Below, in pieces: positions 1,812-20,053 of a stretch of 20,465 bases of DNA. Source of the DNA: Chrysochromulina tobinii (lineage: Eukaryota; Haptophyta; Prymnesiales; Chrysochromulinaceae); assembly GCA_001275005.1 (NCBI GenBank), contig JWZX01001446.1:1-20465 (forward strand). Direction: 5' to 3'. The notes beneath the pieces were generated by a model. It was not told the origin of the DNA. It saw nothing but the letters and a program-made list of their open reading frames with translations, and ran no database searches. Numbering within the stretch: position 1 is the first letter of the stretch; every line of letters begins with the position of its first letter. Both the position numbers and the translations under genes were made by a program.

Positions 1812-3943
1812 ATGTTTGGCCGGATGAAGAAGGGCCACTTCGGTGGTTTGACTCCGCCACTGCCGGTGGACGAGAGCAGCAATGCGCCGGAGGCGGGCTC
1901 CTCTTCCGATGACGCCGTTGGAACTGAAGATGTAGTGGGATCGAAGAGGCCCCATCATCCGCCGGAAGTTCCAAAAGGCGAAGCAGCACCAGCAGCACCA
2001 GCAACGCTGAAGCTCAGCATGCCACCGCAGCACCAGCACCAATCAACACAGAGTCCTTTCGGTGCAGGGCTGCCCCCACCGTCGGCCGCAACGATGGTGC
2101 CCTTGGCGGCGGCGCCGCCGCCGAAGCTGCAGGCCTCCAAGAGCGCGCTCTCAAACTTGAAGCTCCAAATCCCCGATGCGGTGATGAAGGCGAGCGGGAC
2201 AAGATTGACCTGCTGCACAGAGTGCGGGATGCGGGCTCAGCGCACGTTTGGCGAGTGCTCGCGCTGCTTCGGCATAAGCGTGTCGGCCGCATACTTGGGC
2301 CTTCGGCTGCTGCTGGCGGTGCCGCTCGGGCTGGCCGTCGGCGCGGCGGTGCTAGCGCTGCAGCTGCTCCTGTTCCTCGCGCTGCTGCTGCTGCTGCCGC
2401 TCGCGGCGCTCTTCGGCCTTCTGATGCCCGCCGAGAATGAGACACGCGCCAGCCCGATGGCGCTGCCCTCGAGACACGTGGTCATACTCGGAGGCGGGGA
2501 AGGGCTCACGCGCGAGATCGCGCTCGAGTGCGTGCGGCGCGGCGCCGACGTCACCGTCCTCGCCGCCGAGTCGGACGCCCTCACTGCGACCTACGAGCTC
2601 ATGAAAACGATTTCCCTCGAGCGACCGACGCAGGTGAGCGGTGCAAGGGCAGCAGCTGTGCTGCCTGCAAGTGCTCACCACGGCGTCCTCACCTCTCCCC
2701 GCAGGCGAGCGAGCAACGCCAGCAGCTGCGCTGCTCGCCGCTCGAGCTCTCAGATGGGCCGATGGCCTGCTTCGTCGGGATGCAGAACGTGCTCGAGATC
2801 GTCGGCCGAATCGACTGCTTCGTGTGCCACCCGTCGGAGCTCTTTCTCGAGGTGCCCGGTGGTGTGAATGTGAAGAGAGGGACGTCGAACACTGGCAGCG
2901 ACGGCGCTCAAGACGCCCACGACGGCGCTTCAGGCGCCCACGACGGCGCTTCAGGCGCCCCTGCAAGTGCGAACGCCCCTCTCGCCGATGCGCTCTGATG
3001 ACGCCTCTGATGACCTCTCTGATGACGCCTCTGATGACATCCCTCATCAGGTGCAAGTGCGATCGCTCCTCTCGCCGATGCGCGCATTGCCGAGGCGGTT
3101 CTGTGCTGCGTGTGGGCTGTACGCGCCATCGTATTCCCCATGCAACGGCAGGCGCACGGGCGCGTGATGGTGCTCGGCACGGCGCCTCCAGCTGCCTCGG
3201 CCGTGACTCGCCTCTCGTACAAGCTCGCTATGCAACGGCTCGCGCGCTCGCTCCGCGCCGAGTTGGGCGAGTTTGCCATCCCCGTCTCGCTCGCATCGCC
3301 CCTCGGTGCCGATGAACCCTCGCCCAGGCGCGCCGACGCCAGCAGCGGCAGTGGCAGCAGCGGTGGCAGCGGCGGCAGCGGCGGCGGTTACGGCGGCGGC
3401 GGCGGCGGCTACGGCGGCGGCGGCGGCAGCTGCGCCGGGTGCTGGGCCGGCGCGTCGTCTCGGGCACCTCACCCCCTTGAGTACGCGGGCCACGTGGTGA
3501 GCAGCATGCTCGAAGGGGGTGCCCTCCATCTTCCCCAGCATGCAAGCGCTCACCACGGCGCCCTCTCCTCTCCCCACAGGTGAGCAGCATGCTCGAGGGG
3601 GTGCCCTACATCTTCCCCCCCGGTGGCAGTCGACCGACGATGCGTTCCGGGTTGGGCGCCGTACTGGGCGCCCCGCTCGGCTACAATCGGCTCTGGCTGA
3701 CGCTGCTGCTGCTGCACGCCTTCTCGCTGCCCATCGCCTCGCTCTACGAGGTAGGCCTACCGACCGCGTGGCTGCCCAGCAAGCAAGTGCTCACCACGGC
3801 GCCCTCTCCTCTCCCCACAGGTGGGCCTACCGACCGCGTGGCGCGAGGCCTGCACTCGCGCCCGCCTGCGCCTCGAGACTTTCAGAACACAAAAGGAAGC
3901 TGCTAGACAGGGCTTCGCTCCCCTGCAAGAGCTCGAGGCGTAG
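1812..3943 (+). CDS. Membrane-anchored short-chain dehydrogenase-like protein, KDSR-like, catalytically degenerate (5 exons)
   Basis: Proposed CDS: join(1812-2633, 2705-2861, 3051-3496, 3580-3750, 3821-3943), 572 aa, stop TAG. The N-terminus is Pro/Ala-rich. A Cys cluster follows (C134, C135, C138, C149, C152), like a small zinc ribbon. A hydrophobic stretch spans about 160-205. A Rossmann-like segment starts at H222, with GGGEGLTREIA at 227-237. A GRVMVLG strand starts at 363, and Lys384 sits where the SDR catalytic lysine belongs. A second hydrophobic segment lies at about 510-531. Order and spacing recall 3-ketodihydrosphingosine reductase, an ER-membrane SDR of sphingolipid synthesis. However, the third glycine of the nucleotide motif is Thr, the catalytic Ser position is Gly/Thr, and the Tyr four residues before Lys384 is Arg. 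Activity is therefore doubtful. A Ser/Gly run lies in exon 3. All four introns carry exon-derived duplications. The donor of intron 2 is uncertain (2862 or 2967, both in frame). Start: first in-frame ATG, with ATG 1824 as an alternative. Confidence 0.6.
2634..2704 (+). repeat. Family-A duplication intron, SDR-like gene intron 1
   Basis: A 71-nt phase-0 GT-AG intron (CAG|GTGAGC ... CCGCAG|GCGAGC). Its first ~35 nt imperfectly duplicate the start of the next exon (2705 on): both contain CAGCAGCTG and GCTGC at corresponding places, with one gap. The exon copy begins GCGAGC and the intron copy GTGAGC, so one C/T difference distinguishes the working GT donor. Positions 2666-2704 are the shared 3' module, with core GCTCACCACGGCG, a CTCAC branch-point-like site and a pyrimidine tract. 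Confidence 0.8.
2862..3050 (+). repeat. Family-B intron with nested copies, SDR-like gene intron 2
   Basis: A phase-1 intron with acceptor CCCTCATCAG|GTGCAAG at 3050/3051. Two donors keep the frame: 2862 (GTGTGA, 189 nt) and 2967 (GTGCGA, 84 nt). The bases from 2963 on (GCAAGTGCGA...) duplicate exon start 3053 on, through GCCGATGCGC. The outer donor region GTGTGAATGTGA also looks like an older, transition-decayed copy of GTGCAAGTGCGA. Between the donors are three 21-bp units (2900-2920, 2921-2941, 2942-2962) beginning GACGGCGCT. The 3' part is TCTGATGAC-type repeats (about 2993-3039). I prefer the outer donor because it gives a more compact SDR-like alignment. Confidence 0.65.
3497..3579 (+). 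repeat. Family-A duplication intron, SDR-like gene intron 3
   Basis: An 83-nt phase-0 GT-AG intron. Its first ~40 nt (3497 on) copy the following exon (3580 on), with one 1-nt indel and one substitution. Both begin GTGAGCAGCATGCTCGA. Positions 3541-3579 are the 39-nt shared module ending TCCCCACAG. Retention would shift the frame and terminate soon after. Because the exon copy follows CAG, the sequence CAG|GTGAGC at 3577-3585 resembles a donor even better than the real one (GTG|GTGAGC). Confidence 0.88.
3751..3820 (+). repeat. Family-A duplication intron, SDR-like gene intron 4
   Basis: A 70-nt phase-0 GT-AG intron. Its first 22 nt (GTAGGCCTACCGACCGCGTG...) duplicate the start of the last exon (3821 on), with one A/G difference: GTAGGC in the intron, GTGGGC in the exon. 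Positions 3782-3820 are the shared 39-nt module, almost identical to that of intron 3. Removing it joins Glu-Val in frame and leads to the TAG at 3941-3943. Confidence 0.88.
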
Positions 3944-4321
3944 CGCCGTCCCGGGCAGATGTGCGTGTGGCTCATATCATTCTCACATCTGGTCAGTATC
4001 TGCGGCGTACCCTCACGCTCGCAGGCGACGGCGGCAGCAGTCGACGAAAGTCTGCGGGATGCGAGATGCAGATAGTTTTGATCCCTTTACGCCATACGGT
4101 GAGTGCAGGGATGTGAGTCTGTGTCATTTTGGGGCCTGGCTCGTTACCCGGTACGTGTGTGGGTGAATTTAAAACAGGACCACACAGTACAGCGGCGCTC
4201 ATGCAGGCGCGTCCCCGGGGGGGCGCGCTTACATGTGTGGGAAACACAGACTACAAACTCCGTCCTCACACCAATCCCTCACGGTGGAGACTTGTGTGCG
4301 CGGCCCAAGGGTGCGCGCGCG
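3944..4321. other. Intergenic region between SDR-like gene and MON2
   Basis: No gene is recognised in these 378 bp. The region must contain the 3' end of the upstream gene and the promoter and 5' UTR of MON2. An open frame extends upstream of the chosen MON2 start to an ATG at 4103, but the sequence it would add is unlike any MON2 N-terminus. I see no TATA box or repeat that stands out. Confidence 0.5.
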
Positions 4322-7300
4322 ATGTTGCACCTCATCGAGCAGGATTTGCGTGCGTTATCCGAGGTGCGCGATGCCCGCAAGTTTCCCGAGGTCAAGGAGG
4401 CGGCGGAACGGGCCCTTCTGCGTCTCCGCAGCATTGCGAAGGCCACTTCACCCTCTGCGCCAGCTGCGGAGCAGGCCCAGCAGGTGGCAGCCTCGGAGGA
4501 AATCCTCGTGCCCTTCATGCTTGCGCTTGCGAGCAAGAGCGAAGGGCTGCCGCTGGCAGCACTTGGTTCCGTCCAGCGCATGATCTCACACAATGCGGTC
4601 GCACCGCAACGGTTGCCGACAATCACGTCCCAGCTGATAGCACGGGCGCAGCTGCCCTCTGCGGACGAGCCCTCGCTCCTCAAGGTGTTGCAGACTGTGT
4701 TGACAATTGCCAGCTCTCCTGCACTCTTGCAATCGGACACGATCGTCGCACAACTTCTGCTACTGTGCCTGACGTTGCAGCAGTCCCGGGCGCCCACTGT
4801 CAAGGGTACGGCCTCGGCGATCGTTCAGCAATTCGTGGCGCTCCTGCTCGATCATGTGGCTGCCGAGGGCTTGCCAGCGGCGCCTGCTAAAGAGGGCGCT
4901 CTCGCGGCACCGACGGAGGAAGCGCTCAAATCTCTGAGTGTCGCGACGCGCTGTTCCTACCTCGCCATACGAGACCTGTGCTACTTGGCCAACGGCGAGC
5001 CCGCTCTCTGGCTACCGGGCTCTGGGCCCGTGGGCGTGCCATTCGCGCTCGAGGTCATTCAGCGCACGCTCCAGAGCCATAAGGCATTGTTCATCTCGCT
5101 CACGCCCTTCCGCTACTTGCTCCGTGAGCGCGTGTGTTCGCTGGTGCTCAAGACCATGCAGGCTCCGCAGCAAGAGTGGCCGGCGGCGCTGCGGCTGGCG
5201 CATCTCACCTCGACGCTCCTCTCGGGCTACGCCGCCGTGCTGCGCACGGAGTGCGAGATCCTCCTCTCGATGCTCGTCAAGACGGCCGCGGCCGAGGCCT
5301 CGCCCCTATGGCATCGGGCGCTCGCTCTCGAGGCTTGCCGGGTAGTTTCAGCGGACCCTCCGGGGCTCTACTCCCTCTTCGCGGCGTACGACATGGCCGC
5401 CAAGTCGGCGCCCCCCCCCAGCCTCACCAGCAGCCTCCGTGCTGAGCCCGCTGGCGTCTTCGCCTCCTTCGTCGCCTCCTTGTGCGGCCTGCTCAAGTCG
5501 CCGACGGTCAACTTTGCGATGCATGCCGAGTACATCGAGGCGCACTTTTTGCGCCAGCATCGCCAGATGCCCTCCGTCGAGCGGACCGCCACCTTCAACG
5601 TTGGGTTGTACTCCGAGGCCGATGGCACGCACCTCACCAATGATTACGCCGCATCGCTCGCCGTCGAGTGCCAAGTCTTCCTGGCGCGAGCAATCGGCTC
5701 CCTCGGCGAGACGCTGCGTGCCCGCGACGAGGCGGCGGCGGCGGACGATGCAGCCGGCGGACCGGCTACGAAGCCGTCGGCGTTGGAGAGCAAGTCGTCG
5801 GTGGCGCTCTCCGAGCCGATGGATCCGGCGGTGATGCGCGAGATGGTCGGCGTTTGTTGGCAGCCGCTCCTGTCCGCGCTCTCAGTCCTGATGGCACGCT
5901 TCAGCTCGGAAGAAGCGATCCAACTGATCCTTAAGTGCTATCAGGCCTTCACACAAGCCTGCGCGGCGCTGGAGCTCACCGCGCCCAAAGAGGCCTTTCT
6001 GGCCTCCCTGTGCCATTCCTCTCTGCCGCAGGACCGGGCGTCGCGGGCGGGCGACACCACCTCCTTTTCTAGCCTCCAGGCCATGATCGACACCGCGTAC
6101 GAGCCGCTGCCCCAGACGCGCCTCTCGGCGAAGAATGTGCAGGTGCGATCTCCTGGATGGTCCTTGATTTCGTTTGATTGCGTGTGAATGCCCTCAACGC
6201 CGCGAAGAACGTGCAGGTGCGATCTCCCTTGATGGTCCTTGATTGCGTTTGATTGCGTTTGAATGCCCTCAACGCCGCGAAGAACGTGCAGGTGCGATCT
6301 CCCTTGATGGTCCTTGATTGCGTTTGATTGCGTTTGAATGCCCTCAACGCCGCGAAGAACGTGCAGGTGCAATCTCCCTGGATTGCGTCTGATTGCGTCT
6401 GATTGCGTCTGATTGCGTCTGATTGCGTCTGATTGCATCTGATTGCGTCTGATTGCGTCTGATTGCGTCTCACTGCCCTGTGTGCCGCGGAGCAGGCTCT
6501 CAAAGCGGTCTTCAACGTCGCGCACTGCATGGGAGACATGCTCGGCACCTCGTGGAATCTCGTGCTGAACGTGCTCGAGCACCTCGACAGGATCATTGCA
6601 AACTCGAAGACGACCACGGCCGGCGGGCAGACTACCATTGAGCGCGCCATCGCGACGGTCCACGGCGCGACTCCCGAGGCCACCTCGAACGAGCTCGCCA
6701 TCCTGTCCGCGGCGCTCAACAACCTCTTTTCGGCGTCGACGAAGCTGAGCGACGTGGCGATCTCCCACTTCCTCACGGCGCTCTCGACGCAGAGCTTCTC
6801 CTCCCTCGCCCATGAGGCGACCTCCAAGGAGAAGCTCGCCACGCCTGGCTCGGCGGCGGCCCAGCCCACGCGCCTGTTTGCGCTCAACAAGTTTGTCGAG
6901 ACCACGCTGATCAACCTGGAGCGTATCGCGGTGCTCTGGCCGATTGCGACGCAATTCTTGCTGCCCGTGGCCAACCACCAAACGCAGCGGATCCGCGTCC
7001 TCGGTGTCGAGTCGCTCTCCAAGGTCGTCATCGCGGCGATGCGCCTCTACCTGAGCGACTCGCAGGCGATCGAGACGGGCTCGGGCGCGGAGGCGGCGCT
7101 CGGGACGGCGCGATGGCCACCGCACAAGGAGGGCAGCGCACGCGGCCTCGTGGGCACCTTTCCGAGCTCCTGGGACCGCGTGCTCCTCGCCCCCTTGGAG
7201 GAGTTGCAGCGTCGCTGCGCCTATCGTGAGACGCATGAGCGCATCTTGAGCTCCACTCACCAGGTACTGCAGGCATGCGGCGTCGGCCTGCGCGATGGCT

Positions 7301-10300
7301 GGCTGATGCTGCTCTCGATCCTTCATTGGGCGGCGACGAAGCAGAAGAATTTGGTGTCACTCGCCTTTCGTTCGGTCGAGTTGATCGCGTCTGACTTTTT
7401 GACCTTCCTTCCGTTGGCCTGCCTGCCCGCGTATGTCGAGGTCGCTGCCGCGTATGCGACTCAGACGGATCACCTCAACGTGGCCCTGACGGCCATCGGC
7501 TTGCAGTGGACGATTTGTGACCACCTCTTCAAGGTCCAGTCGTTCGATGCCTCGGACGCGAGCAGCGACGCGGACGCGGCGTCCGACGCCCGCGACGGCG
7601 CCTCGGACGGCCTCGGGCCTGCTGCGCCCGGGACGGCGCCCGGGACGGCGCCCGGGACGGCGCCCGACGGCTCCGCCGTTGAGGAGGAAGGGGTCGCGTC
7701 CACGCCGCGCTACGCGCACCTCAACGTGCGCGATGACGTGCGCACTCCCGACGTGTGGCGTGCGAGTGTCACGTCCGTCCGCCGCCTGTGCGTCGACGTG
7801 CGCCCCGAAGTGCGCACGTGCGCGATGCACTCGTTCGTGTCCATCATCTCGTCGCATGGCAAGAACCTGCCCGGTCCCTTTTTGGACCATCTGCTCACCC
7901 GCACGCTGCATCCCATGCTGGACGAGATCGTGACCAAGACGGCGTCCGCCTCGACGATCTCGTCGGCGAGCGCCGCGAGCGCCAAGCTGGGCACCGAGGG
8001 CGGGCGGGATGTGATGATGATGGTCCATCACTCGCGTGACACGGAGGCTAAGCAGTGGGACGAGACATGGGTGCTCGCGCTCGATGCGGCCGTGCGGCTG
8101 TACCGCGGCTTCCTGCCTCAGCTGCTCAGCTGTGCTTCCTTTGAGCGAGCCTGGTCGACGCTGCTCGGGTTCGTCAAAAAGTCGCTCCTCTCGATGCCGC
8201 GCTCCTCGGAAGTGGCGCTCGCAAGTATCACCGCGGTGCACTCGCTCATGCTCTCCTCCGTGCAGCTCTCGACCCAGGGTGGCTCCTCTCCGCGCACCTC
8301 GTCCGACGATCCGGCCGCCACCGCGCCGGCGTCGCCCAAGTCGCCCCCGAGCTTGCAACGCGCCAACACAGTGCCCGCCAAGGCGCTGGTGCCCGTCGCG
8401 TCGCCAGCCGACGGGCCGGGGTCCGCCGTACAACTGGCCAGTGGTCTGATGAGCATCGCCGCCAGCACGGCCCCCGTCGAGCGCGAGCGCCTGCCGCCGA
8501 AGCTGTGGGCTTCTGTCTGGTCGATGCTCGAAACGGCCATCGAGCAGGCGACCTCGGACGCCAGCACCTTCGCCACGCATGAGAAGATGCTCTGCGCCCT
8601 CGCGAACCGCACCGCCGATCTGTACGAGGGCGGCCGCGGCTATTTCGAAGAGGCGGACGTGCTCCGGCTGCTCCAGCTCGCCGAGCGTCTCGTGCGCTCT
8701 CCGGAGCGCCCCCTTGGCTGGGAGCCAACGGAGCCTACGTGTGCCCCGAGCGCGCTCCAGAACGCGGTGCTCAACCTGCTCTCGAAGCTGCCTCCGTTTC
8801 TGATTGCATGCTGATTGCATCGCTGAGTGCATGCTGATTGCCTCCTCCCTCATCAGGTGCTCAACCTGCTCTCGAAGCTGCCTCCGTTTGGGTCGCCGGG
8901 CGTGAGGGAGGACGAGATGTGGCCGCTGCTGCTCTGGCTGCTCCTCAAGCTGCTCGAGCCGCCGTCCGCCCCGACGCCCGTCGCGCTCACCAGCCCAGCG
9001 GCGACGGCCAAGGCGCCCGCCGTGGCGGGCGGCCGAGGCGCCGTGGCGGGCGGCCCGACCGGATTCGGCGAGAAGTGCTACCAGCTGCTGCACCGGCTGC
9101 TGACCGAGGAGGCGAGCCCCGCTGCCAAGATGGCCTCTAATGAACGCTAATGAGCGCTGATGACCTCTGATTGCTGACCGAGGAGGCGAGCCCCGCTGCC
9201 ACGATGGCCTCTAATGAACGCTAATGAGCGCTCATGACCTCTGATTGCTCCCCTCATCAGGCGAGCCCCGCTGCCAAGATGGCCGTCGCCGAGGATGTCC
9301 TCAACGTGACGCGTCGAATTATGGCCTGGCGCCTCAACGAGGCCTGCCAGTCTCCCGGGCTGCCACGCGCCGTCGCGGCCGGGTTCGTCACTCTCCTCGA
9401 GGCGATCTTGGCGCATCTCCCGTCGCCCGCCGCCGACCCCATGCTCGCCGAGCGAGCGCACCACGAGCTCGTCGAGGCGCTCTGGACGCGCCTCTCGCCA
9501 CAGGCGCTTGTGGCGTCCTCGGGCTTCGCCGAAGCCTCAATCGGGCCGCCCGTGGCGGCGCCTCTCGGACCGGTCACCGCCGAGGTGGACCTGCTTCCTT
9601 TTCTGCTCTCGGTCTGCTCGGACTTGGAGGAGACGAAACTCATGGAGAGCACGCTGACGGGCGCTCGTTCGGTACTCCGCGCGGCGTCCATGAAGTCGGA
9701 GCATCGCTCGCATGCAAGTGCTCACCACGGCGCCCCGTCCCCTTCCCCACAGGTACTCCACGCGGCGTCCATGAAGTCGGAGCATCGCACGCGGCTGCTG
9801 CTGATGCTGTGTGCCGTTCTCCGTCTCCCGATGCATGCAGCCGTCGCGTGCGATGCATGCTGGCGCGAGGCCGTCACAGCGCTCTGCATGCTGAGCTCCT
9901 CCACGGGTGGTGCTCAGGACGGCGCGTGCGCGAGCTTGACCGTGCCTAATGGTGCTCAGGACGGCGCTCGAGGAGCTCAGGACGGCGCGTGTGCGAGCTT
10001 GGCCGCGCCTAAGCTGCTGCAGGTAGCACGCGTCGTCCTCAACGGCTGGGCCGACGTGGAGGGCGTCAAGGAGGAGGGCGCGCCCGTTACGGCGCGTGGC
10101 GGTGTTGCGGGCGTGGAGGACGTCAAGGAGGAGAGCATGCTCGCGCTGAGGGCGGCCCAGATCGCGCATTTGCTTTCACACCTGAGCAGCATGCGGCTCG
10201 CTGAAGGCGCCCTGCCGGCTCCCAACTCGCAAGGTCGTTCGATCCCCGCGCGGATCGCACCTGCGATGATCCAGTGTATCGGCGAGCCCAGAGCCCTCTT

Positions 10301-10692: not shown

Positions 10693-12738
10693 ATGCCGCC
10701 GAGAGGCAGCCGGCTGCTCTCCTCCGTGCTGGCCGCACGTGCCGGCGGTGGCGCAGAGGTGCTGGCCTTCAAGGCATCGGTCGATGAGCTCTCGCGCCTC
10801 AGCACCGCGCGAGCTCAGGACGAGGCGCTGCTCCAGCAGATCTCGGCGCAGCTGCACAGCCTTGAGCCGGCCGTCTGCGCGCGGCTGCTCACCGAGTGCC
10901 GCTTCCGCGACGAGTGGCGTCAGGAGAAGTGCGAGCGTGCACTGCAGCAGCTGCCCAGCAGCGAGCAGGATCCGGAGACCGTCGACCGCATGCGCGAGTA
11001 CATCGCGATGCTGGCGCCTGACGAGGACCTCGGCCCACTCGAGCCCGGCTGGCAATCGGAGCTGCTGCGGCAGCAGCGCACGCTCGCGAGCCTTCTGACG
11101 CTGTGCGCGGGCGGCTCGTCGGACCGCGTGCAGACCGTGCTCAGCGACTTTATGGAGAACTCGCGCAGCCGGCTGCACGCGGCGCTCACCTCGGTGCACG
11201 AGGAGCTCCTCGAGGCGGCGGCGAGCGGCCACTGCGCACGCGCGCCGGCGCGCGTGTCGGGGTGCGGAGGAGGGCTGTCGCCGAGCTCGTCGCCGCTCAA
11301 GCAGCAGCCGCAGCCGCAGCCGCCGCCGTTCCGGTCCGCACCGGGCGCGCCCCACCCCATTTATGCTGAGGCGGCGTGGGGGGGGGCTCCGCCGCAGCTC
11401 TCGCCCAGGCACGTGTGGGGTTCCGAAACGGAGGCGGCCGCGCGCCCCGGTACAGCTGAGGTGCGCGGCGCGCCGGTCAAGCCCGGCGGTCCCGGCGGTT
11501 CAACGGGCGGCGTGCGCGGCCTCTCTGCGGAGGGCTTCGTCGCGCAGCTGCGAGGGCAGCACCGCGCCGTATGCACCATTCAGGCAGCCGTCCGAGGTCG
11601 GAGGATGCGGGCGGCGTACCGACGGCGGGTGAACCGTCGGATCGGGGCGGCGGTGCGGCTCCAGTGCTGCGCACGCCGGTGGGTCGCGAGGCGCGCTCTC
11701 CGGGTGCAGCGCGAGCGACGCGTACTGGCCGCCCGACGAGCGCTGCGAGAATGGCACGCAGCTCGGCGGGTGCAGCGCGCGTGGCGCTGGGCGCGGCGCA
11801 AGCGGCGCTGGACGGCGGCGTGGCGCGCGCAGATGGCGCACGCGGCCGGTGCCGACGACAAGGCGTGGCGCGCCATGCTCAAGCGTTCGCTGCTCCCCAA
11901 GACGCAGGTAACCTCGAGGAGAGCTGGGAAGCGGTTCAAGCATGCATGTGCTCACCACGGCGCCGTGCCCCTTTGTTCACAGGAGGCGACTGGATTCTCG
12001 CAGTACGCCCTGTACACCGAGTCCAAGGTGCTCGCGACGCGACGGGCGAAGGAGGAGGGGAGCGCGCAGCGGCTGCAGGCGGCGGTACGCGCCTTGAAGG
12101 TTCGGGTGCTCTGGCGCAAGCTGCACCGCGCCGCGAGCGTGCTACAGGCCGGTGTGCGCCGCTGGCGTGTCTGCAATCGAGAGTGCCCATGGCGGCGCGC
12201 GCTGCGACGGCACCACGCAACAAGGCGCTCGCGACGGCGCTGGCGCTCGCAGCGCGCGGCGGCGCTCGCGCTCCAGCCGCTCCAGACGCGCGCTGTGCTG
12301 GTGCAGCTGCACGTGAGCAAGGAGCTGGAGCATGTGTACGAGGAGGTGCTGCGCGAGAAGCGCGACTTTGAGAGCGCCTTCCGCAAGTGGGCGGCCAAGA
12401 TGGAGAAACTCACGCTGGCGAAGAAGCTGCATGCGGACTGGATCCCGCAGATGAACGTGGAGCGGGGCGAGTCTTACTTTTTCAACGTGCGTACCGGGGA
12501 GTCGTCCGAGGAGCACCCGAACATGAAGGAGGTGCGTAAGACGGAGAAGAAGCAACGCAAGCTCGCCGAAGAGGCGATGGAGGAGAGGCTCGCGCGCCTG
12601 CAAGGCTACGAGGAGCAGCTGCGCGACGCGCTGCGCACGGAGCTCGAGGCCTACGCCGAGCAGGCCGCCAAGGTGGCCGCCGAGGCGGCCGTGCTCGCGC
12701 AGGTGGCGCAGCAAGGCATTCGATATGTAGTTCGGTAG
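10693..12738 (+). CDS. IQ-motif protein with degenerate WW domain and C-terminal coiled coil (2 exons)
   Basis: Proposed CDS: join(10693-11907, 11983-12738), 656 aa, starting at the first in-frame ATG (MPPRGSR). Residues about 1-190 are mostly helical. A Pro/Gly/Ala-rich linker runs to about 275. At least five IQ-like calmodulin-binding motifs follow, centred on I296-Q297, L323-Q324, V360-Q361, L436-Q437 and LQ near 458, in a strongly basic Arg/Trp-rich region. Residues 558-584 look like a WW domain: W558, a YFFN at 570-573, TGES at 576-579 and HP at 583-584. The second Trp position is Glu. The remaining C-terminus is charged coiled coil (KKQRKLAEEAMEERLARL). IQ repeats normally bind calmodulin or EF-hand light chains. 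The IQ plus WW-like plus coiled-coil arrangement suggests a cytoskeletal, centrosomal or flagellar scaffold, but I recognise no specific orthologue. Confidence 0.8.
   Translation: MPPRGSRLLSSVLAARAGGGAEVLAFKASVDELSRLSTARAQDEALLQQISAQLHSLEPAVCARLLTECRFRDEWRQEKCERALQQLPSSEQDPETVDRMREYIAMLAPDEDLGPLEPGWQSELLRQQRTLASLLTLCAGGSSDRVQTVLSDFMENSRSRLHAALTSVHEELLEAAASGHCARAPARVSGCGGGLSPSSSPLKQQPQPQPPPFRSAPGAPHPIYAEAAWGGAPPQLSPRHVWGSETEAAARPGTAEVRGAPVKPGGPGGSTGGVRGLSAEGFVAQLRGQHRAVCTIQAAVRGRRMRAAYRRRVNRRIGAAVRLQCCARRWVARRALRVQRERRVLAARRALREWHAARRVQRAWRWARRKRRWTAAWRAQMAHAAGADDKAWRAMLKRSLLPKTQVTSRRAGKRFKHACAHHGAVPLCSQEATGFSQYALYTESKVLATRRAKEEGSAQRLQAAVRALKVRVLWRKLHRAASVLQAGVRRWRVCNRECPWRRALRRHHATRRSRRRWRSQRAAALALQPLQTRAVLVQLHVSKELEHVYEEVLREKRDFESAFRKWAAKMEKLTLAKKLHADWIPQMNVERGESYFFNVRTGESSEEHPNMKEVRKTEKKQRKLAEEAMEERLARLQGYEEQLRDALRTELEAYAEQAAKVAAEAAVLAQVAQQGIRYVVR
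11908..11982 (+). repeat. Family-A intron, in frame if retained, IQ/WW gene
   Basis: A 75-nt phase-0 GT-AG intron (ACGCAG|GTAACC ... GTTCACAG|GAGGCG). The module at 11943-11982 has the invariant GCTCACCACGGCG core but a decayed pyrimidine tract. The exon-copy relation is weak: GAGGAGAGCTGGGA in the intron against GAGGCGACTGGAT at the exon start. This looks like an older member. It is 25 codons without a stop, so retention keeps the frame. Confidence 0.75.
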
Positions 12739-17323: not shown

Positions 17324-20053
17324 ATGGTGAAAACGGGGCGAACGGGGGCGCAGAATGGACGCGCTGGTGGGCGCCTCAGCGCTGGCGTGAGAACTGCCAA
17401 GGCTCTGGCTGCGGCCCCCCGAGTGCGCGTCGTGGCCGAAGGGTCACGACCCTCGAAGCGTGCAAAGCGAGATGAGCCGATGGCGACGCCGACTCCGGTG
17501 ATGCTCGATGAGCTCACGGCGGCCAAGGGGCGTGCGCAGGCGATGGCCGAATCGCTGGGCCTCTCGCCAGGCTCGATCAAGATCATGGTGGCCTCAGCCC
17601 TGGGCACATTTGCAGGCTCAGCGATGGCGGCCCAGGCGCCAGCAGCAGCAGCTGTCACCAGCACCCGTGTGGGCAAGCAGCCCGTGCGGCCAGAGCCACA
17701 AGCCATGGCCGGTGCATCGTCCTCAGCATCAGAGCCCCTCGGCCTCAAGGGGCGGCCGCGCGGCTCGCAGGTCCTCGTGCAGGTGGCGGCCGAGTATGGT
17801 GCGCGCAAGGTGTACACCTTCAGCGACGTCTGCGCCCTCGCCACTCGCATCATGGCCGGCACACTGATGGTCGCCGACTTGCAGCAGAAGAATAGCGACG
17901 GCGCGTGGACGTTCGGCATCCCGCGCTCGACCATGCTCGACAAGTGGCTCAAGGATGACCACAGCGTCATGCAGTCGCAGAACCCGCCGCGGCTCGGTCT
18001 CGCGGGCTCGCCGCACTGGCTCGTCGAGCGCGACGTGCGCGGCCGCACGGAGCTGTCAAAGCCCGGTCCCGGCACGGTGATGGGCGCAGCCGAGACGCAG
18101 CTGATGCATACCCTCGCCACTGCCGCCAAGAAGGGGTGGGCCTACATGGAGGAGGAGATCGACGACCTCGTGCGCAACACGTGCATCGAGCTCGAGGTTC
18201 TCGACCCACGCACGAAGACGCTGTACTCGGAGACGTCGAATGTGAACACGCTTGTGAAGAACTTCCTCAACCGCTGCGAGGAGAAGGGAATCGTGTTCAT
18301 CTATTCCAACGGCCGCAAGCTCGGGCTGCAGCGCGCGATCAAGAGCAACTGGGAGGCTCTCGATCATTATGGCCGGATAGTCGCCACGCCGGCGCTGGTG
18401 GCCTTCCAGCGCCGGCACGATGTGAAACTCACGCTCCTCGACGTGGGCAACTTCGACGAGGCGCAGGTCGACCTTTGCGACTTCGCCGAGAAGGGCATGT
18501 TCCTCATACTGCCTAGCCACGGCAAGAACATCGTGGTCCCCTTCGAGCAGTGCCCACACTTTACCATCAAGTGGGGCTTCATAGGCAAGCAGCTCATGGT
18601 GAGCATGCTGATCAAGATAGGCAGCGACGAGACCGCGCCACACCCCCACCACTGCCAGCTGCTGCAGAGCTCGCGGGTGATCGTGCTCGCACAGTCGGTG
18701 AATGGGTGGACGAACACCACTCTGACGACCGCCTTCCTGCAGCTGCAGTATGACGACCCGATCATCGAGCTAGGCCCAACTTCTGCCCCAGCACCCGCCG
18801 CAGCCGCGACTGCCACTGCGATGCCTGTCGATGATGAGCCTGATGGCGCTGCGGGTGATGCACTACGTGCAGCCATCCGCGCTCGTGGCGAGGCACAACT
18901 TGCCGCCGAAGCGGCGGCCGGAGGCGATGGCGGTGCAGCGGCTGCAGCGGCGGCAGGAGGCTGCGGTGCAGCGGCGCCAGCGGCGGGTGCTGGGGCTCGC
19001 CTGCCTGCACGGCCGAAGGTCCTCAACTTCGACGGGCACTCGGCACACCTCTACAACGAGGCGCTCAAAGATGGCTTCACCGCCAACAAGATCCTCGGCC
19101 TTTGTCCGTGCTCGCACACATCGGCGCCGACGCAGCAGCTGCCCGGCACGCAGCAGGCCGACTATGGCACCAAGCATGGCGGGGGCATCGCGAGCTTGAA
19201 GGGCAAGCTGCGCCCCATGTTATGCAAGCAGTTCCGGGCGTCGCTCATGCGAGCGCCAGGCGACCCGAAGCGCGGCAAGATCGATGTCGCCGAGCTGCTG
19301 GCGATGTGTGAGAAGGCACTGCTGGTCTCGTGGGATGGCTCGATGGCAGAGCACCTGAACGAGCAGGTGGGCTACTACGTCGACCCGACGGACGGCTTCC
19401 TGAAGCTCGACGTGCTCCGCATGCATCGAGCGGAGGTCCCGGTCGACGGCACGGTGCGTAAGCGCACCTCGGCGGACGTGCTCAAGGAGATGAAGGATAA
19501 AGAGGCCAAGGCGATCGAAAAGGCGCGCCTCGAGATGAATGCGGCCGGCGCGGCGGTCGCCATGCAGAACAAGGCTGTGGTGGACCGCCCCGACAAGGAA
19601 GTTCGCAAGGTGCGCAAGGATGCACCGAACAAATTTGGTTGCGTCGTGAGCCGCGAGGAGTCGATCATGCAGACGGCCCTCGACGTGGCCGCCGCCGCAA
19701 CCGCAGCAGCCAAGGACGCCGATAAGGAGAATAAGGCCTGGCCCGCCGATCGGCGCAAGGCCATCCGCGGCCTCGAGGAGATCCTCGAGCAGAAAGGCAC
19801 GCCATCAAAGCTTGCCGTGGGTCAGCTCAAGCAGCTCATCTTCTCTCGAACGGGCCATCACCCGCACGCCAAGAACAACAAGACGGAGGAGGGCGAGGAG
19901 GAGGGCGCTATGCTGCGTGAGGCGCGTGCTGCAATGGCGAAGCAGCCAACGAGCCTCTGCCCACCCTCCCCCGCCGCCGCCCCAGCCACCGCCATGGAGG
20001 AGGATGAGGAGGACAACAGCGAGGATGAAGACGAGGACGGAATGGGTGAGTAA
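17324..20053 (+). CDS. Pogo/DDE_1-type transposase-like protein, 909 aa, intact
   Basis: A single uninterrupted frame. Residues 42-50 (SRPSKRAKR) look like a nuclear signal. A psq/CENP-B-like helix-turn-helix region lies at about 150-210 and includes FGIPRSTMLDKWLK near 197-210, typical of the DNA-recognition helix of pogo-group transposases. A second helical region (about 245-290) is compatible with their second DNA-binding half. The RNase-H catalytic core shows D378 in NFDEAQ, D570 in NFDGHSAHL and D613 in TQQADYG. These match the three acidic positions of DDE_1 (nvDEtg, DGHSSHL, QPLD). An Ala-rich insert (about 486-563) separates the first and second acids. The C-terminus is charged helix ending in an acidic Glu/Asp tail. 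Terminal inverted repeats and a TA duplication were not found by eye, so it may be a host-adopted or immobile copy. It is intronless, unlike its neighbours. Confidence 0.8.
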   Translation: MVKTGRTGAQNGRAGGRLSAGVRTAKALAAAPRVRVVAEGSRPSKRAKRDEPMATPTPVMLDELTAAKGRAQAMAESLGLSPGSIKIMVASALGTFAGSAMAAQAPAAAAVTSTRVGKQPVRPEPQAMAGASSSASEPLGLKGRPRGSQVLVQVAAEYGARKVYTFSDVCALATRIMAGTLMVADLQQKNSDGAWTFGIPRSTMLDKWLKDDHSVMQSQNPPRLGLAGSPHWLVERDVRGRTELSKPGPGTVMGAAETQLMHTLATAAKKGWAYMEEEIDDLVRNTCIELEVLDPRTKTLYSETSNVNTLVKNFLNRCEEKGIVFIYSNGRKLGLQRAIKSNWEALDHYGRIVATPALVAFQRRHDVKLTLLDVGNFDEAQVDLCDFAEKGMFLILPSHGKNIVVPFEQCPHFTIKWGFIGKQLMVSMLIKIGSDETAPHPHHCQLLQSSRVIVLAQSVNGWTNTTLTTAFLQLQYDDPIIELGPTSAPAPAAAATATAMPVDDEPDGAAGDALRAAIRARGEAQLAAEAAAGGDGGAAAAAAAGGCGAAAPAAGAGARLPARPKVLNFDGHSAHLYNEALKDGFTANKILGLCPCSHTSAPTQQLPGTQQADYGTKHGGGIASLKGKLRPMLCKQFRASLMRAPGDPKRGKIDVAELLAMCEKALLVSWDGSMAEHLNEQVGYYVDPTDGFLKLDVLRMHRAEVPVDGTVRKRTSADVLKEMKDKEAKAIEKARLEMNAAGAAVAMQNKAVVDRPDKEVRKVRKDAPNKFGCVVSREESIMQTALDVAAAATAAAKDADKENKAWPADRRKAIRGLEEILEQKGTPSKLAVGQLKQLIFSRTGHHPHAKNNKTEEGEEEGAMLREARAAMAKQPTSLCPPSPAAAPATAMEEDEEDNSEDEDEDGMGE

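Follow-up and report, generated by a model that had tools for sequence, protein, structure and literature searches.

Many introns in a 20,465-nucleotide stretch of Chrysochromulina tobinii DNA (contig C578, referred to as the window), and module-bearing introns elsewhere in the same genome, open with a copy of the exon sequence that follows them and close with a dispersed module that carries the acceptor AG. In our reading, such introns probably arise when an exon receives a copy of the 3' part of a pre-existing intron and a stretch of that exon is duplicated at the same time, by template switching during error-prone repair or replication. The observations behind this reading are documented at the level of the sequence: the layout itself and its occurrence with two unrelated modules, paralogs that lack the intron, three introns that contain fragments of a donor exon, and insertions that have no acceptor.

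Most of the introns in the window sit in two adjacent genes, one of them SDR-like (a single weak Pfam match, under the cut-off of that family) and the other MON2-like (Pfam Mon2_C, E 2e-37), and the predicted spliced products are open frames of 608 and 1812 aa, respectively. Eight introns were aligned to the following exon, and the score was compared with the best of 1000 shuffles (Table 1). A copy of the next exon was found at the intron start in seven of the eight, clearly so in six cases and at the borderline in one. The preliminary description had named seven introns opening with the sequence of the next exon, and six of these (3497/3580, 3751/3821, 8767/8857, 9112/9261, 9672/9753 and 2963/3053) all lie above the shuffles. 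For the remaining one, an imperfect copy at 2634/2705, an alignment does exist, but taken alone it is borderline, since its score merely equals that of the best shuffle. The copy at 2963/3053 is borne out; as the donor of this intron, the GT at 2967 is more likely than the GC at 2963 on a hand reading; the frame is then kept and 6 nt seem to be added, while in the cases compared the message is otherwise left unchanged. Four MON2-like homologs (51–53% identity) align without gaps directly at three tested junctions, and they have one copy only of the repeated stretch.

Table 1. Introns of the window, with the alignment of each intron start to the following exon and its score (best of 1000 shuffles in brackets).
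Feature	Position	Strand	Structure	Alignment	Score
SDR-like intron 1	2634..2704	+	diverged target copy, then M1	2634/2705: 29 columns, 1 gap, several mismatches	18 (18)
SDR-like intron 2	2967..3050	+	copy 2962-2993 / 3052-3083, then M2 repeats ending CCCTCATCAG	2963/3053: 31 nt, 2 mismatches	27 (15)
SDR-like intron 3	3497..3579	+	3497-3536 copies exon 3580-3618, then M1 up to 3579	3497/3580: 40 columns, 1 indel and 1 mismatch	35 (16)
SDR-like intron 4	3751..3820	+	3751-3772 copies exon 3821-3842, then spacer TGCCCA and M1	3751/3821: first 22 nt, 1 mismatch	22 (17)
MON2-like intron, repeat-built	6143..6495	+	75-nt tandem units repeating the exon end, and a 10-mer array	outside the eight-intron alignment	
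MON2-like intron	8767..8856	+	exact 33-nt copy of exon 8857-8889, then M2; homolog alignment	8767/8857: 33/33 identical	33 (15)
MON2-like GC-AG intron	9112..9260	+	exact 24-nt copy of exon 9261-9284, then M2; additional 74-nt tandem unit, exon sequence included; homolog alignment	9112/9261: 24/24 identical	24 (18)
MON2-like intron	9672..9752	+	40-nt copy of exon 9753-9792, then M1; homolog alignment	9672/9753: first 40 nt, 2 mismatches	37 (20)
M1-bearing intron, counter-example	11908..11982	+	target copy undetected		10 (15)

Two modules are seen. M1 consists of GCATGCAAGTGCTCACCACGGCG, a pyrimidine tract and CCCCACAG, while M2 is made of CTGATTGC/CTGATGAC-type repeats ending in CCCTCATCAG, and no likeness between them was seen apart from a GCATGC in some of the M2 repeats. 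In the whole genome (53 Mb, 2253 contigs), the 15-nt core of M1 has 971 exact matches and its reversed control has 0; an M1 24-mer has 461 matches, and the M2 pattern has 1313, with overlapping matches in arrays counted. At C8 and C40, 18-nt tandem repeats similar to the module core (GCTCACCACGGCGC) were observed.

The layout was examined in a sample of 189,289 bases (107 segments from 88 contigs), which is not random because the segments were picked for holding modules. Self-comparison of the loci was dominated by short repeats. With a strict test, in which the copy has to start at most 4 nt from the AG, a copy was found at 91 of 145 M1 acceptors, tandem-array copies and two overlapping contig pairs included, compared with 8 of 146 acceptor-like sites that have no module. 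Of these eight positive controls, four are in a single repeat array of C40 and two are antisense to modules; the last two, at C311 and C36, resemble introns that are laid out in the same way around a different filler. A looser test gave a copy at 105 of 156 acceptor-bearing cores, with the start exactly after the AG in 72. The sample holds 244 cores with at most 2 mismatches, 188 of them with GCATGC in front, and for the cores having both GCATGC and an acceptor a target copy (score at least 12) is present in 104 of 147. As background, 95% of mismatched pairs score at most 10, and the 99% level is 20, a value inflated by modules in the compared stretches. For M2, a score of at least 13, which is reached by chance in about 5%, was found in 39 of 71 cases, 29 of which start at the acceptor. 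A detectable copy is absent at the other 54 of the 145 M1 acceptors, which counts against the reading.

The preliminary description had proposed that a sequence with one target copy and no module would establish intron gain. Such sequences do exist in the genome, as paralogs. The joined flanks of 44 introns (37 M1 and 7 M2) were searched across the whole genome in two runs, in one of which 40 of the 41 candidates were scored, and for two of the introns a junction-spanning intron-free match was found on another contig. In the case of C124:4175, all 90 nt are matched on C2002 with 99% identity; C2002 has one GTACGAGACGCGTGGCCAGC, whereas on C124 a pair of identical 20-nt copies encloses 59 nt, which makes an intron of 79 nt. 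A neighbouring intron is present in both, and C2002 is therefore not a fully processed copy. This shared intron of C2002 ends in CCCTTTCCCCACAG, as does the gained intron of C124. The other case is C1931, which matches C45 over 79 of 90 nt at 92% and is without three of the C45 insertions; in two of these a target copy is present (23 nt in one, about 12 nt in the other), and the absence of the third was read from BLAST pieces. At C2002, a precise cDNA-mediated loss of the 3'-most intron may be envisaged, but a loss leaves the second target copy inside the C124 intron unexplained. The earlier proposal that only the AG-bearing module is new is supported. That the events are recent, which had been concluded from low divergence, is likewise supported, by the identical copies and by the 14 of 671 exon sites that differ between C124 and C2002; these give a relative age only, no absolute date.

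Overlapping contigs were also considered as sources of intron-free alleles, and these candidates were rejected. C101 and C235 are 99.9% alike over most of their overlap, and the main difference is 72 nt, made of six copies of a 12-nt M2-type repeat. In the pairs C760/C692 and C65/C498 both contigs match the tested intron as present, while C357 and C405 merely have a coordinate in common, with no sequence match.

It is important to point out that some insertions lack an acceptor altogether. A usable acceptor within 130 nt is absent in 29 of 185 cores, and 21 of these 29 have a target copy. Among these 21 rows, 17 have a total length divisible by three. The rows were collapsed to events by merging those with a shared copy, after the removal of one array row and of four rows taken to be spliced (two divisible, two not). 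This leaves 12 events, of which 10 are divisible by three (ca 5e-4 by simple arithmetic; the exceptions are C206 and C54), while the intron-type insertions, with 23 of 72, display no excess. Since the AG-less insertions lie in open frames and keep this divisibility, the insertion does not depend on splicing. In six of the 12 events, by a hand count, the insert begins precisely with the palindrome GCATGC, which counts against a free choice of template, because a free choice predicts no such preference. Seven rows (four events) are from C343, and all are antisense to its longest open frame (1398/1401 nt), which we infer to be the gene. At C343:1900-3300, we observed in-frame insertions of a 23–25-nt GCATGC...GGCG(CC) unit, mostly antisense to the longest frame and each with a target copy; these may represent a separate, very small exonic insertion unit.

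For the class predicted to be spliced, we analysed the 75 M1 introns that have a copy and are not in tandem. Their donor is GT in 64, GC in 4 and something else in 7, in agreement with the suggestion that a GT or GC (68 of 75) is taken from coding sequence. The introns are 63–170 nt long (median 80). When their flanks are joined, only 51 of the 75 stay open within 120 nt, with nearby introns and non-coding sites pooled in the remainder, and in-frame retention is possible for 12. The distribution of duplication lengths, proposed at the outset as a check, has now been measured, and in 60 clean M1 introns it spans 13–53 nt (median 29), which is not the fixed short target duplication of a MITE. 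The total length of the M1 introns is narrow (SD 7.9 vs 13.7 after shuffling of the parts), and the copy length correlates with the length of the module part at −0.71, a value that is partly an artefact of the alignment ends. M1 introns are never below 63 nt in this set, and a short module therefore needs a long copy. The ten in-frame AG-less events measure 45–63 nt, that is, up to the length at which the M1 introns begin. This suggests that a shortest spliceable length sorts the products, and the long duplications may in part be due to selection on intron length. Three M2 rows of 50–61 nt, below the M1 minimum, fit neither of these two proposals.

The sequence between the target copy and GCATGC provides information about what is copied. 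This spacer is 0–24 nt in 72 high-identity introns, except for four longer ones. Among 42 introns with spacers of 8–30 nt, a match of at least 8 letters, with at most 1 mismatch, to the 5' side of another module is seen in 30 (shuffled spacers: 11%), a share that is inflated by loci fetched for matching, with seven of the 30 coming from one array. In 13 cases the match enters the exon-derived part of the donor; five of these are in arrays, five are short (1–7 nt, which could be chance), and three are strong. In C124:4175, 17 nt come from the exon-derived part of an intron on C1665; in C88:9177, 13 nt come from that of the intron C88:11531, located 2.35 kb away; and in C65:9033, 7 nt and a G run come from C913, all with at most 1 mismatch. 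In at least these three introns, the copied segment therefore runs from a point inside a pre-existing intron to its AG. Judging from these traces, what is copied from a donor intron is a 3' piece of variable extent, with no fixed 5' end.

Similar tails are found on the same contig in 23 pairs, about three of which repeat one event, compared to a permutation mean of 7.5 and a maximum of 19 (2000 permutations). Similar 5' extensions occur on the same contig in 4 pairs vs 0.45 expected (permutation maximum 5). Part of this likeness within contigs could come from later gene conversion. At C65:9742 and C1969:23517, one module lies between the same 14 exon letters, in surroundings that are otherwise different, a pattern that suggests homology-assisted copying at the DNA level. 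At both of these loci the acceptor AG apparently comes from the exon copy. Long junction microhomology was considered as a driver of the process, and is a weak candidate, as junction matches beyond the splice consensus reach runs of at least 4 in only 4 of 75 introns.

The mechanism that we favour would start with a stretch of the target exon becoming duplicated (13–53 nt in the clean set), as offset nicks, a staggered break or a stalled fork are filled in. A putative polymerase would then switch to another, often nearby, intron as template, and the resulting insert would comprise a branch-point-like stretch, a pyrimidine tract and an AG. The upstream duplicate would become the 5' end of the intron, with its GT or GC acting as donor, while the downstream duplicate would stay exon, and the message would thus be unchanged. 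Most events would be expected to damage the gene, and the survivors would either end at an AG and be spliceable or keep the frame. As copies would breed copies, one or two intron lineages could come to dominate without encoding any machinery. Precedents are reported for mammalian cells, where breaks with 3' overhangs of ca 43–50 nt give tandem duplications (PMC8355091), and for nearby DNA being captured during repair (PMC2671141). Of the two mechanisms offered in the preliminary description, template switching is favoured, because the 5' end is not fixed, bits of donor genes can be carried along, and one layout is common to both of the unrelated modules and to two other fillers; the insertion of a fixed element at long staggered cuts is disfavoured. 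We regard as evenly balanced the broader proposal that spliceosomal introns here replicate without a transposon, as a lineage fed by repair only, in which the host exon supplies the 5' part, scraps of earlier hosts are carried along, and spliceability and frame act as the filter.

A further point against template switching is that the copied part ends exactly at the AG in the introns, as the 3' end of an RNA also would. A LINE- or Penelope-like enzyme could then have performed target-primed reverse transcription of an excised intron RNA, starting from the AG end and stopping early, with variable long duplications. This possibility, the main rival, which we consider unlikely but worth keeping in mind, would account for the exact AG end, the variable 5' start and the variable duplications directly after the AG, and the three strong donor traces all lie inside introns. 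The typical LINE/SINE pattern of a constant 3' end with variable 5' truncation would fit the introns, but not the AG-less insertions, some of which are moreover antisense to the longest open frame. The likeness to neighbours on the same contig also speaks against an RNA intermediate, as do the identical 14-letter flanks at C65:9742 and C1969:23517, which look like DNA-level homology.

A usual introner, in the sense of a non-autonomous DNA transposon that a transposase mobilises, would produce dispersed similar introns with a target duplication, where the element brings the 3' splice site and the duplication the 5' site, as described for Symbiodinium (PMC9860276). The target duplications would have to be unusually long, however, and they are also variable here; terminal inverted repeats were found in 0 of 82 cases tested, there is no fixed 5' end, and the behaviour is the same for both unrelated modules and for two other fillers, which makes this option improbable. 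The notion that slippage or gene conversion later replaced the 5' ends of old introns with sequence of the neighbouring exon draws on the tandem X-M-X-M arrays, which show that slippage acts on module introns. It is nevertheless very hard to maintain, considering that C2002 is without the whole unit although the neighbouring intron is shared (for C124:4175 the notion is effectively refuted), that homologs align through the junctions, and that donor exon fragments are present. Equally remote is a plain tandem duplication of an AGGT-bearing exon stretch with short repeats growing between the copies, which might apply to some M2-like introns at most; by eye, C36:13763 and C45:4262 seem to have both splice sites in the target copies and a short repeat between them, but local DNA cannot supply a dispersed M1 core that is found 971 times.

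The origin of new introns is an old question, for which introner transposons are the leading answer when gain comes in bursts. A related system is reportedly the subject of the introner study by Huff and co-workers from 2016. The present introns resemble introners in the broad sense, in that many similar introns occur at unrelated positions by insertion into exons. The similarity does not extend to both intron ends, as the first part is a gene-specific target copy. The introners of Gozashti et al. (2022, PMC9860276) are likewise of recent origin, alike, and dispersed over unrelated genes, and in some families the 5' site comes from the target duplication and the 3' site is carried; the introns described here differ by longer duplications, no inverted repeats and no fixed 5' end. 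Duplications of 3–9 bp are quoted there for earlier families, and 4 bp for the Symbiodinium example. The survey required similarity near both intron ends, and the present class would therefore probably escape it. Amoebophrya introners also have direct repeats at the intron boundaries, but these are 3–5 nt and accompanied by inverted repeats of 8–20 nt (PMC7789003), and a broad survey gives direct repeats of 4–30 bp with a mean of 11.4 (PMC11782384).

A direct target repeat around a filler, as expected from staggered-break repair, is what we find. For Daphnia introns, a direct repeat common to the intron end and the adjacent exon is described in PMC4202315, and a staggered break is invoked there too; those repeats are 4–12 bp, while in C. 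tobinii they are longer, the filler derives from the 3' part of other introns, and some donors are traced. In introns from tandem genomic duplication, as outlined in PMC3443670, the splice site also comes from duplicated exon and the message is unchanged, but in the present introns a dispersed module between the copies supplies the acceptor. The inserts at breaks in repair-mediated duplication are similarly copied from nearby sequence, although the abstract of that paper does not present this as a route for intron multiplication (PMC2671141). In the titles and abstract openings of a largely open-access literature, no account was found of introns multiplying by their 3' halves.

On this reading, many recent intron births are available for study in a single genome, and, with intron-free paralogs, traced donors and insertions that did not turn into introns side by side, the raw event becomes separable from later selection. 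The observations also suggest that one class of intron gain may escape surveys in which both ends of an intron have to be similar.

Finally, a viral source of the modules was considered and rejected. The 23-nt module had one exact match in viral_contigs; it lies near the terminus of a phage-like contig that becomes algal-looking in its last part and was judged by eye to be a chimera. The region at about 4240-4554 of this contig holds an M1 module and eukaryote-like sequence, and looks like an assembly chimera. For an RPL11 stretch, no match to phage was found. A 909-aa open frame at 17324-20053 of the window has no Pfam match at E 0.001. For the RPL11-like protein of the window, the best E-value among the matches listed belongs to a Blastocystis record (70% identity), and the highest identities among the named matches listed are in haptophytes, with 86% for Haptolina ericina (taxid 156174), 84% for Chrysotila and 82% for Emiliania.
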